Origin: Atrina japonica
Lineage: Eukaryota; Mollusca; Bivalvia; Pterioida; Pinnidae
Reading direction: 5' to 3'
Assembly (NCBI GenBank): GCA_030159075.1
Contig: BROG01000130.1
Coordinates: 992,001-1,056,000 of the forward strand
Length of the DNA: 64,000 bases
Below the pieces are notes generated by a model, which searched no databases, was not told the DNA's origin, and saw only the letters and a program-made list of their open reading frames with translations. The number at the start of each line of letters is the position of its first letter. The first letter of the stretch is position 1. Positions 54,801 through 58,881 of the stretch are shown piece by piece. The translations under genes and the position numbers were made by a program.

Positions 54801-57800
54801 ATCCAAATGTGAATATAGTCCATCCACTTATGTTGAACCATGTTACCATATAGACTCACCTGTAAGTCAGATTTTCTGGAGTAAATTTTCAATCTTAGTT
54901 TTACATTGAAATCTGGCTTAATTTGAAATGATTTTGATCCCCAGGAAATATATTTTCTTTACCATTATAACCCTGTTTTTTTGAAACCCCTGGTTATTTA
55001 AAACAAATATTAATTCCGCTTTGATTTTATTATATCCGAGTTTGCTTGCTCTTTCAAACTGGATTTATTGATATGTCGTCTATTGCAGACTGGCTGTGCT
55101 AAAAGGAAAGTTTTTACCTCTGATGAGCTTAACCTGGGTGACCAATAACAGTATTGTAGCTGTGGTGAGTATAAACACTTCTACATGTTTTGGTTGAAAA
55201 TGATTTATGTAGGACTGTAGGTTAAATCCAGACCTTTTTCTGCCAATTTTGTGGAGATGACAATGGCGACACAATTGGGAATTTCATTCCAAGTCAAATT
55301 GGGAAAAATAGTTTGCATACATGTAAAACTAAATGCAATTGGGTCTCTTTTATTAAGACATTTCATTTACATTGATTTTTGGGGATTTTTTTTTCAGAAA
55401 AATAAAACAAGTATTTTGCATTGGGAATTGGGCCAAATATTGGCCCCAAGTAAACTATAGAAAAGGGTCTGATATCTCAATTAAACTGAGTGATTTAAAT
55501 TTCAAAGCAAAAATGTGTCATAAATGGAATGACTACACTATGTCTGCACTGTAACTTCAATTTCAGTAAAATTAACATATGGAGGACAAATTCTTGAGTC
55601 CCCATTTATGCCTGTTTTCTATATTCTTTTTCTGCTGGAAATAAACACAGAGGTCACATCTGTCGGTCAAGGTCTCCCCTGTTGTTAAAAAACCATGTGA
55701 CATGTTTTCCTTAAAAAGTGTAGTGTATAAATGGTGTATCAAATAAAGATGGTCTGCTGATCGACTTTATGATTGATTGCTACAATATTTTTGTTTCAGG
55801 GAAATGACTGCAACCCTAAACTTTTCTCTCACAGCGATGATGGAAAAATCACTTTCATGACTGACCTTGACATTCCACAGGAGAAGGAGGTTTCAACAAT
55901 GAGGTATGTTAACATGTTGCAATTATGGGAATGAACATTCATATTGTATATAAAGATACACAGGCCTAATAAGTGGGTCAATATGGAATAAGCTTAACAT
56001 CATTAATCCTCCTATCAAGTAACTAAGTAGACAAATAAAATAAAGTCAGTAATGTTTGTGTTTCTGTTTGAAATGCACTTCCTCATGTTAATGTTTGTGT
56101 ATATTTATTGTCTGTATATTCAGAGTTTTACTATATAAGGGTAATTTTCCTGTGAGTTTAAGCCAGGTGAGTTCATTTTCATGCGTTTCTCGCACTGGCA
56201 GATTTTGTCAATATTTTAAATAAAGTCAGAATTATGTCATTGTAAGCTGACCTTTACATTATTGGCAGAGATTGTTCAGGATAGTGCAGAGACCATTTTC
56301 TGCATATTATGGCAATATAGTAACTGTCAATAAATAATTATATAATGATAATAATAATAAAGATAATAGTTATTGTGAAAATTGTTATGCAGATATTTCA
56401 GCCAAAGTAGAAATAGCAAACCAAACAGGCAAAATAAAATGTCATCATAGTAAAAGGTGTTTTGTATAGACTTTATTCTCTATTACCAGTAATAGAATGT
56501 ATATATTGAACTTATGTGTCAAATGTTAGTGAGCACTTGGATACATTAAGACCAAGTTTTCCTCTTACACATGATTGTTATGCTTTGTATGTACAAGTTT
56601 ACTGTTATCGTTTACAGTGCTATGAACCGATTTAAAAACTTGGATAAGAAAGCTACGGCAGATGATGACACTTCTCTGAAAACAAAACATCAGAACACCA
56701 TATTGTAAGTCATACTTACGGCTTTGAGAAAATATAAAGTACATGTTCTCATGTTTGTTGTTTTGTTTTTTGAATTTTGTGTACATTAATGTTTTATTTT
56801 TGCCTCCTTTGAAGGCCTTAATGTAGGAATTTATGATATGATTGAATATATTAATATTATAACATGTAAAAGATACCTTCAGAAACAAAATGAGGGTGAA
56901 CCTAACTCAGGGTGAATATATTCAATGATGTTGAAGGGTAAAATGATAAAACCAGACATACAGCTATTTGATTCTGTTATATATATAGGTATACAACTGT
57001 TTATGTTTTGTTTACATATTTATAAAATACTTTGTCTAGAACATTTTACATATTGTCTGTATTTTAGATCTCTGATAGCATAGATTTACATTAGTTTGAA
57101 TTTTCCCTTTTTTATTGTTTTCTTTTTAATACAAAATATGAAAATTAAAATATGTGAGCATTTCAAAGTTTATTGTTGATATAGATATCAGTTACATAGC
57201 TGTCATTCCAGACAAGTGTGTATTTATGATATAGATATCAGACAAGTGTGTATTTATGATATAGATATCAGACAAGTGTGTATTTATGATACAGATATCA
57301 GACAAGTGTGTATTTATGATATAGATATCAGACAAGTGTGTATTTATGATATAGATATCAGACAAGTGTGTATTTATGATATAGATATCAGACAAGTGTG
57401 TATTTATGATATAGATATCAGACAAGTGTGTATTTATGATATAGTTATCAGACAAGTGTGTATTTATGATCTAGATATCAGACAAGTGTGTATTTATGAT
57501 ATAGATATCAGAAAAGTGTGTATTTATGATATAGATATCAGTTTTATATCTGTCATTCCAGACAAGTGTGCATTTATGATATAGATATCAGACAAGTGTG
57601 TATTTATGATATAGATATCAGACAAGTGTGTATTTATGATATAGATATCAGACAAGTGTGTATTTATGATGTAGATATCAGTTTTATATCCGTCATTCCA
57701 GTCAAGTGTGTATTTATGATAAAGATATCGAGCTGACCTGGCTCAGTCAGTAGTTCGCTGGACTCTTGGTCGTGAGTTCGAGTCCAGCTGGCGGCAGGTT

Positions 57801-58881
57801 AGTTTCCTGTCATTTGGATGAGACAGTAAAACCAGAGGTCCCGTGTCACAGTAGGTGTCGGCACGTTAAAGAACCCTCACTGCTCAATGGCCGTAAGTGC
57901 TGAGCTTAGGCCAAAATTTGAAGCCCTTCATCAGCATTTGATGATGTCTCCATATGAGTGGGCAGACAAGTGTGTATATATGATGTAGATATCAGACAAG
58001 TGTGTATTTATGATATAGATATCAGACAAGAGTGTATTTATGATATAGATATCAGACAAGTGTGTATTTATGATATAGATATCAGACAAGTGTGTATTTA
58101 TGATATAGATATCAGACAAGTGTGTATTTATGATATAGTTATCAGACAAGTGTGTATTTATGATATAGATATCAGTTTTATATCTCATTCCAGACAAGTG
58201 TGTATTTATGATGGAACAAAGGAAAACTGTAAGAAGTTCTCTACCACTGGAAAGGATGGTCAGCTGATCATTTGGGATTTTAAGGTAAAGACAGTGATGA
58301 CAATTATATTGAGAAAAACAATTTAAATTACTATCAAGCTTATTTGTACGGGGTGGGTATAGGTCTACCAAGGTAAAGTGGCACAGCCTGTTTCAGTCAG
58401 AAACCAAAACAATACGGTCTACTTTCCAAAAATAGGTTGTATAGGTAAAACAAATGCCATGCACAGATTTCATGCAATACTAAATCTCTAATATTTTGTG
58501 ACAAGTAGCTTGTGACCTCTCTTATGATTTGATTTAGACTTGTTGTGTTTGTAAACATGTGCCAATTACCGTGGTAGACCAGTACATTACCTGGGAAAGG
58601 GTAGATATATAGCGATGCGTTGGGTTGGTACATGTATAGTTTTTATCCATCCTTTACATTCCTGTAGTTTTCATCTTTTACAGTGGTCAGTCAAAATAGA
58701 CATGAAATGTCTTTTGAAAATGTGAAAAGATCTTAAATATTTCTTCCCTCACCAACTACCCCTCCGAAAACCCTCTGTATGTATTACAACATTTTACTTT
58801 TATGCGATAAATTTAAGATCAGTCTTTTGTCTTGTTTTTCAGTCCCTGGAGCAGTCAGTTGCTGGGCTGAAGTTGAAGTGA
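45876..58881 (+). CDS. ARPC1: Arp2/3 complex subunit 1 (ARPC1, p41-Arc), WD40 propeller, 12 coding exons
   Basis: Coding exons are 45876-45939, 50668-50819, 51791-51899, 52068-52185, 52877-52936, 53356-53462, 54321-54423, 55089-55164, 55800-55903, 56618-56704, 58194-58284 and 58843-58881. All are GT/AG with consistent phase, giving 369 aa (family about 370-372). The protein begins [20 protein letters not shown]. It contains VTGIDWA...[14 protein letters not shown] (blade 2), [30 protein letters not shown] (blade 3), [20 protein letters not shown] and [15 protein letters not shown] (blade 4). It then has [42 protein letters not shown], the inserted loop [15 protein letters not shown], and [17 protein letters not shown] with a final tail [12 protein letters not shown]. 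Family knowledge: ARPC1 is one of seven subunits of the complex that nucleates branched actin. Counting from an inferred untranslated exon 1, coding exons are numbered 2-13 here. Exons 5 and 12 adjoin arrays copied from their own edges. Confidence 0.97.
46548..46795 (+). mobile_element. tRNA-derived SINE, near full length
   Basis: The tRNA-like head has A box tggccgagtgg and B box ggctcgaatcc. The body contains gggaaagtttgccagttttc and ends ccatcatatgactgaaagat, gttgagtatggcgtaaaac. The tail is aaaaataaaataaaataaaa. It is the best-preserved of several related copies here and lies in ARPC1 intron 2. Confidence 0.8.
47978..49250. mobile_element. Putative non-autonomous hAT-like element in ARPC1 intron 2
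   Basis: The left end is cagggttcgaaattagcag. The right end, read on the other strand, begins tgcagggctcaggaaaacac. Sub-terminal motifs cttgtcagacgggcaagtg and cactcgtcacagacaagtgg also form an inverted pair. CAGGG-type termini are typical of hAT elements. No convincing 8-bp target duplication and no transposase reading frame are visible, so the class is tentative. Confidence 0.4.
49434..50577. repeat. 29-bp minisatellite with about 356-bp higher-order period, ARPC1 intron 2
   Basis: The unit is gtgtgatatcagtatt plus atagcacactgta. Distinctive variant runs (gttttatacctcac, ctgttgcttgat, tgtattgtaattttgacat) repeat in the same order. For example gttttatacc is at 49662 and 50018, and again at 49902 and 50258, both 356 bp apart. 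Near-palindromic stretches (cacactgtagtgtg, gatatc) could fold. A long C tract interrupts the array near its start. The array ends about 90 bp before exon 3. Confidence 0.93.
49486..49615. repeat. 111-nt uninterrupted poly(C) plus second C run
   Basis: C runs without a break from 49486 to 49596, followed by tccctttcc and a further C run to 49614. The opposite strand is a poly(G) tract capable of G-quadruplex formation. It is embedded in the 29-bp array. A homopolymer this long is prone to length error in any sequencing technology. Confidence 0.9.
52186..52700 (+). repeat. 60-bp minisatellite made of the ARPC1 exon 5 donor junction
   Basis: The last 36 or so bases of exon 5 (from cagattaagaaaccaatcag to gacatg) and the following donor are repeated downstream in intron 5. 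Copies begin at 52221, 52289, 52349, 52409, 52469, 52529 (truncated) and 52625, with a degenerate one between the last two. Most are 60 bp apart. Decoy donors read atg|gtaagt (GT at 52324, 52384, 52444 and 52504). That is nearer to consensus than the authentic atg|gtgagt at 52186. The linker tattgaggtgtagtaacag supplies an AG before each copy, so each unit resembles a 32-nt pseudo-exon. Confidence 0.95.
53008..53222 (+). repeat. Dispersed repeat, agctcacc family, ARPC1 intron 6
   Basis: It begins ttagctcacctgatccaaag followed by agccaagcgagctt. It continues with ttgtctgtccattaac, aaccactggacaaatttcaa and cccaatttggcag. It is the same family as the block at 1495-3560. Confidence 0.65.
57175..58193 (+). 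repeat. 30-bp minisatellite made of the ARPC1 exon 12 acceptor junction
   Basis: The unit is acaagtgtgtatttatgat followed by atagatatcag. The first 19 bases are identical to the first 19 bases of ARPC1 exon 12 (58194 on). Units start at 57212-57512 (11 at exact 30-bp spacing), 57562-57652 (4), 57702, and 57966-58146 (7). That is 23 decoys before the true exon. Each unit ends in AG immediately before the next copy, so every boundary resembles a 3' splice site. A longer acceptor-like leader with ttttatat and cattccag recurs at about 57541, 57681 and before the real exon. A SINE interrupts the array at about 57728-57962. Confidence 0.95.
57728..57962 (+). mobile_element. tRNA-derived SINE inserted in the exon 12 minisatellite
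   Basis: The head has A-box-like tggctcagtcagtag and B-box-like gagttcgagtcc. The body contains gatgagacagtaaaaccaga, then ggtcccgtgt and gcacgttaaagaaccctc, a core I associate with metazoan SINEs of the Meta-domain type (recalled, not searched). No clear poly(A) tail or target duplication is seen. It lies between repeat units, so it inserted after the array had formed, or the array later expanded on both sides. Confidence 0.7.

Follow-up and report, generated by a model that had tools for sequence, protein, structure and literature searches.

ARPC1 and its tandemly copied exon edges

We analysed a stretch of 64,000 nucleotides (nt) from the bivalve Atrina japonica (GenBank assembly GCA_030159075.1, contig BROG01000130.1, positions 992,001 to 1,056,000; hereafter the window, in whose coordinates all positions are given unless stated otherwise). 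It contains one complete ARPC1 gene, in which two exon edges, the 5′ edge of exon 12 and the 3′ edge of exon 5, are each copied in tandem. The arrays recall the 'mirages' of the lancelet globin genes and Adh3, described in the extracts of PMC3087553 as tandem duplications of exon–intron boundaries on either side of an exon. A protein-level search of the 832-Mb assembly gave 11 ARPC1 matches, all at the window locus, so that ARPC1 is single-copy in the sense that this is the only copy found there. Among the best 120 of 3562 protein matches, no named protein exceeds in identity that of the pearl oyster Pinctada imbricata (79%). Exons are numbered as in an earlier note made from the letters of the window, with a presumed non-coding exon 1 counted, and exon 12 is accordingly the 11th of the 12 coding exons. 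The features on which the argument depends are the following (a slash marks an exon–intron border or, at the left breakpoint, the join).

45876–58881, forward strand: ARPC1 coding region; 12 coding exons, 369 amino acids (aa)
52068–52185, forward strand: exon 5, with its 3′ edge copied in tandem; real donor ACATG/GTGAGT at 52186
52186–52703, forward strand: donor-side array, with decoy donors at 52256, 52324, 52384, 52444, 52504, 52600 and 52660
56618–56704, forward strand: exon 11, ending in phase 2, ATATT/GTAAGT
57170–57180, forward strand: left breakpoint of the exon 12 array, TTATTGTTGAT, with TGAT in common with the exon (TATGAT/GGAAC)
57192–57211, forward strand: leftmost leader, TTACATAGCTGTCATTCCAG; this is probably the most ancient of the 3′ splice sites
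57212–57730, forward strand: upstream sub-array; 16 exon-edge copies, with leader-bearing acceptors 57212, 57562 and 57702
57731–57960, forward strand: short interspersed element (SINE) without a 3′ tail, which from its head sequence we take to be of the tRNA type; it differs at 18 of 219 sites from a consensus built on 11 genomic copies
57966–58175, forward strand: downstream sub-array; seven units of 30 base pairs (bp), in frame and open with exon 12
58176–58193, forward strand: 18-nt leader, TTTTATATCTCATTCCAG, with the presumed working acceptor
58194–58284, forward strand: exon 12; it opens with codons for QVCIYD, predicted to form the strand that follows the exon junction

The earlier note had described 23 tandem copies of the 5′ edge of exon 12 in front of that exon, and a count of its first 19 nt bears this out: ACAAGTGTGTATTTATGAT is present 24 times at 57212–58194, as 23 decoys and the real exon start at 58194 (range searched, 57101–58300; up to three mismatches permitted, at most one found). 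The proposed 30-bp unit likewise stands, with 19 of the 23 spacings measuring 30 bp and the others 50 bp (two), 264 bp (one, containing the SINE, which splits the array into two sub-arrays) and 48 bp (the last). A typical unit joins 19 nt of exon edge to an 11-nt linker ending in CAG, and AG directly precedes every one of the 23 decoys. When the 24 exon-end 20-mers of ARPC1 were searched, start- and stop-codon ends included, only the 5′ end of exon 12 and the 3′ end of exon 5 recurred in the window; at exon 12 this recurrence is beyond chance. Genome-wide, the array together with exon 12 matches this locus only, the matches on other contigs being repeat sequence at 67–74%.

The reading frames are also as previously described. 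Exon 11 leaves phase 2, which every unit can accept, and the seven decoys from 57966 onward (57966, 57996, 58026, 58056, 58086, 58116 and 58146) read open into exon 12, with added lengths of 228 down to 48 nt, all multiples of three. Decoys further upstream, by contrast, had been said to run into stops, and all 16 do, 57702 included; stops are reached after 58 codons from 57562 and after 17 codons from 57702. The longer, pyrimidine-bearing leader, reportedly confined to the real exon and a few units, precedes three decoys and the real exon, being 20 nt long at 57192, 57542 and 57682 and 18 nt at the real exon only (58176), and it is because of this difference in length that the last sub-array alone is in frame. 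An extra AG at 58174–58175 would add 18 nt in frame. That seven units should run open is not remarkable, since 49.6% of random 30-mers and 33% of random 48-mers from the window are open in a given frame.

The array at exon 5 appears, by its sequence, to be the mirror case of that at exon 12 and thus a second, donor-side mirage in ARPC1. Its decoy donors follow at steps of 70, 68, 60, 60, 60, 96 and 60 bp; all seven are GTAAGT, preceded by ACATG in six and ACATT in one, and differ in this from the real donor, which is GTGAGT. In six of them the final 35 nt of exon 5 are present, with a mismatch in one case. Translation continued past the real donor would reach a stop after a single codon.

Divergence of the units and order of events

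The SINE inside the exon 12 array is a dispersed repeat: a first look at the genome gave 5862 candidates, and all 40 that were scored were matches. The tail that the window copy lacks is present in the genomic copies aligned with it. Compared with their consensus, the array units carry 12 differences in 688 sites (1.7%), against 8.2% for the SINE, and because the units are the less diverged, the array probably predates its SINE, with turnover going on after the insertion. Mirages are described as evolving in concert inside, with outer copies that are less homogenised; here the leftmost leader is the most divergent one, yet the leftmost core equals the consensus. Within the units, the exon part differs from the consensus at 5 of 437 sites and the linker at 7 of 251 (hand count), so that the lower divergence of the exon part is not significant (p = 0.13).

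Two further observations bear on how the copies arose. Short words are shared at the edges of both arrays, namely TGAT at the exon 12 breakpoints and AGATT between exon 5 and its right flank, and TAGATATCAG precedes all four leaders of the exon 12 array. In addition, the third position of QVCIYD is serine in eight and alanine in one of nine aligned relatives and cysteine in the window, where all 24 copies encode cysteine (TGT in 23, TGC in one); the change to cysteine thus either predates the copies or spread among them. The simplest history that would account for the array begins with a 50-bp piece, consisting of an 11-nt intron linker, a 20-nt leader that includes the 3′ splice site, and 19 nt of exon 12, being duplicated at TGAT. 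Subsequently, 20 nt would have been lost between two CAGs, giving a 30-bp unit that kept its AG and had lost the pyrimidine-bearing leader; this unit would have multiplied and turned over, and the SINE would have inserted into the array thereafter.

Choice between the decoys and the real acceptor

A pooled pyrimidine-tract model, trained on 11 ARPC1 acceptors with exon 12 left out, gives the real exon 12 acceptor a score of 4.14 and the leader-bearing decoys 57562, 57702 and 57212 scores of 5.87, 4.88 and 1.51, respectively; the other 20 decoys, including the seven in frame, score from −2.35 to 2.01. At all 12 real acceptors of the gene the nearest upstream AG lies 18–63 nt away (18 nt at exon 12), compared with 7 nt at 20 of the 23 decoys, the seven in-frame ones among them, 12 nt at 57212 and 20 nt at both 57562 and 57702. 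Given 20 of 23 decoys with low tract scores and an AG at 7 nt, the earlier caution that the decoys may be silent appears well founded. Were a decoy to be used, it would more likely be 57562 or 57702, both of which would give stops rather than an insert. A position-specific acceptor matrix built from the same 11 introns was set aside as resting on too few sites (2.0 for the real site versus 2.1 for most decoys).

The protein of a relative, P0001, shows 96% identity across 369 aa and runs from exon 11 straight into exon 12, with nothing inserted between them. It comes from a 1473-base contig and, because this is too short for introns of such size, presumably derives from a spliced transcript. 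A search with a fragment of the decoy isoform as query returned a single protein among four candidates, with no decoy unit in its sequence. No longer ARPC1 isoform of the source species is among the best 120 of 3562 matches to the full-length query, where only P0001 exceeds 79% identity. Both negatives weigh little, because the source species seems to be absent from that database.

Taken together, these data favour, with a probability of roughly 0.8, a silent mirage: a minisatellite that arose by duplication of an exon–intron boundary and is accompanied by a second mirage at exon 5. Most decoys would have been disarmed by loss of the leader, exon 12 would be spliced mainly at 58193, and the product would be the normal 369-aa ARPC1. 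The copies, their frames, the SINE and both arrays are directly visible in the DNA; the order of events, the choice of splice site and an instability of array length are what we infer.

Several points weigh against this interpretation. The training set of the tract model comprises 11 acceptors, and the model was adopted after the position-specific matrix derived from these 11 had given no separation; two real acceptors, those of exons 3 and 9, score in the range of the decoys (0.25 and 1.22), and decoys 57562 and 57702 outscore the real acceptor. P0001 is a single sequence, from a relative that possibly lacks the array. The dating by the SINE is weak, in that its 11 reference copies were chosen for likeness and are each 1 to 17 of 219 sites off their consensus. 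Finally, words as short as TGAT and AGATT can coincide by chance.

Alternative explanations and the wider distribution of arrays

As to origin only, and compatibly with a silent mirage, both arrays could be ordinary minisatellites that happened to begin on exon edges, with no role for the splice sites; we hold this possible, though at somewhat less than even odds. Minisatellites are indeed abundant here: with a period of 15 or more and three or more copies as the definition, they take up 32,372 of 264,000 bases in the region surrounding the gene, and this figure does not include the exon 5 array. Moreover, none of 13 local occurrences of AGGTAAGT lies within arrays, compared with an average of 20% for 200 permutations of the motif, which speaks against seeding at donors. 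Chance placement fits less well with the gene itself, since placing ARPC1's three arrays at random puts at least two on exon edges with a probability of 0.0055, a value computed post hoc.

Evidence from beyond the gene points in both directions. A periodic GTRAGT scan of 130 local arrays flagged four: the exon 5 array, one further array (L044) and two without a clear exon. L044 lies on the minus strand at about 120632–121313 (contig position minus 992000), where an exon-like stretch ending in CAGG/GTAGGT precedes some ten units of 58 bp that have CAGG/GTAAGT; it is likely a third mirage, at a candidate exon. An exon finder run around this array missed the exon, whose acceptor scored −1.1, and a structure-database search with the exon found no relative (single match, E 1.8). 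GGTAAGT falls in local arrays in 15 of 45 cases, versus 2 of 41 for its reverse, an excess explained by the exon 5 (6) and L044 (10) arrays.

Genome-wide, three AGGTAAGT spaced 25–55 bases apart gave 1793 matches (712 + 1081) compared with 214 (122 + 92) for the reversed pattern, an 8.4-fold excess of matches, not arrays, those listed falling by eye into about 20 arrays; single AGGTAAGT and its reverse tie locally outside arrays (13 versus 13). In a non-random sample of eight arrays, an exon-like open stretch adjoins four (L049, L050, L051 and L054). The first of these, picked for its coding-looking unit, matches a Pfam nucleotidyltransferase (23.6 bits; cut-off 21), and the other three were judged by eye; at L052, L053, L055 and L056 no exon-like stretch is visible in the 201–301 bases examined. 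The unit of L054 consists of donor and intron only. L050 and L054 each have a presumed real donor other than GTAAGT beside copies that read GTAAGT, a motif that the search pattern itself requires in the copies. Arrays at donors may thus be common in this genome, and preferential seeding at donors is a lead rather than a result. The broader proposal that a process tied to splice junctions seeds arrays at them genome-wide, at donors above all, strikes us as doubtful; were it true, many genes would carry unstable arrays of decoy sites feeding new exon edges, introns and length-variable isoforms.

The remaining alternatives concern use of the decoys. Decoys 57562 and 57702, perhaps 57212, and the exon 5 decoy donors might be used in part, yielding early-stop mRNAs and an ARPC1 output that falls with array length. 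The two acceptors that outscore the real one and lead to stops, and the uniform GTAAGT of the decoy donors against GTGAGT at the real one, speak for this; however, lancelet mirages are reported to have no effect on regular splicing, as far as the extracts of PMC3087553 and PMC3902484 go, and we regard partial decoy use as improbable.

Less probable still is the possibility raised in the earlier note, that in-frame decoys are used at some level and extend ARPC1 by n × 10 residues at the start of propeller blade 7, varying with copy number. The seven units are open and in frame, and an AlphaFold2 model of P0001 (23-sequence alignment; mean predicted local distance difference test (pLDDT) 88.8) shows residues 326–334 as a strand after a poorly defined stretch, residues 290–294 and 308–314 being below pLDDT 50. 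With the exon 11–12 junction in codon 327, an insert would border on that stretch, at the start of the strand, and each copy would restore QVCIYD, a position compatible with tolerance; the model proves nothing about decoy use. What tells against an insertion is the low acceptor scores of all seven in-frame decoys, the lack of an insert in the relative's protein and, with the little weight given above, the lack of a longer isoform in the protein searches. The substitutions among units (2 synonymous, 10 non-synonymous and 0 stop, compared with 16, 69 and 5 possible single changes) likewise give no sign of constraint on the repeat peptide. The note's observation and its anatomy thus stand, its in-frame insertion is not supported, and it had missed the SINE split, the exon 5 array and the fact that such arrays are a known kind. 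An assembly artefact seems hardly credible: tandem arrays are often misassembled and these are seen in one assembly, but the units differ by 12 substitutions, a diverged SINE interrupts the array, and the array with exon 12 has its single genomic match here.

Other features of the window

Upstream of exon 3, at 49486–50568, about 129 mostly C bases lead into an array with 32 copies of a 29-bp unit, and intron 2 holds, at 46549–46790, a second dispersed element recognised by eye, which we take to be tRNA-like from its motif. A 37-bp array of 61 copies lies at 38645–40865, with a GC skew of 0.48 and 0.34 in the overlying 2-kb stretches. A Pfam scan of ten long open reading frames of the window gave only two weak PH-domain matches, both under the cut-off and both in a 304-codon frame at 7539–8450.

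Significance and comparison with known systems

Two mirages in one conserved single-copy gene, one on the acceptor and one on the donor side, would constitute a natural test of how the spliceosome chooses one of 24 near-identical acceptors and one of eight donors. If the excess of donor arrays holds, tandem arrays would continually supply splice sites, and through them new introns and exon edges.

Among known systems, tandem alternative splice sites such as NAGNAG resemble the exon 12 array in presenting competing acceptors, some of them in frame. According to the extract of its description, TassDB2 covers sites 2–12 nt apart that are seen in transcripts, whereas the units described here are 30 nt apart and the nearest decoy lies 48 nt from the exon. 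Intron gain through proto-splice sites likewise involves tandem duplication with splice motifs; in that process, however, duplication of an exonic AG/GY motif gives rise to a new intron, whereas here the existing exon 12 acceptor has been copied and no new intron is seen. Among the papers found for molluscs, titles and opening lines of abstracts disclosed no exon-edge arrays of such a kind, and an intron minisatellite of abalone is described, in the extract of PMC6905558, without mention of an exon edge.

Judged by their anatomy, the ARPC1 arrays share the anatomical features of the lancelet mirages, as these appear in extracts of the two reports. The copies span the exon–intron boundary at exon 12 and at exon 5; either side of an exon can be affected (in lancelets the acceptor of BflGb6 and the donor of BflGb9, here the acceptor of exon 12 and the donor of exon 5); and splice signals are retained in many lancelet copies, as is AG in 23 of 23 copies at exon 12 and GTAAGT in seven of seven at exon 5. 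The BflGb6 mirage has six and three units in two haplotypes, and its authors read regular splicing as undisturbed (PMC3087553); further lancelet mirages are those of TnC and PGBD5 (PMC3902484). Unlike these, ARPC1 combines an acceptor and a donor array in one gene, in a mollusc genome and known here from DNA, and its exon 12 array has a 30-bp unit in 23 copies, most of them without the pyrimidine-bearing leader, is split by a SINE and includes seven units in frame. In the literature found, in so far as its extracts extend, mirages are known from lancelets only, and the ARPC1 pair in a distant mollusc genome suggests that the kind is not specific to lancelets.

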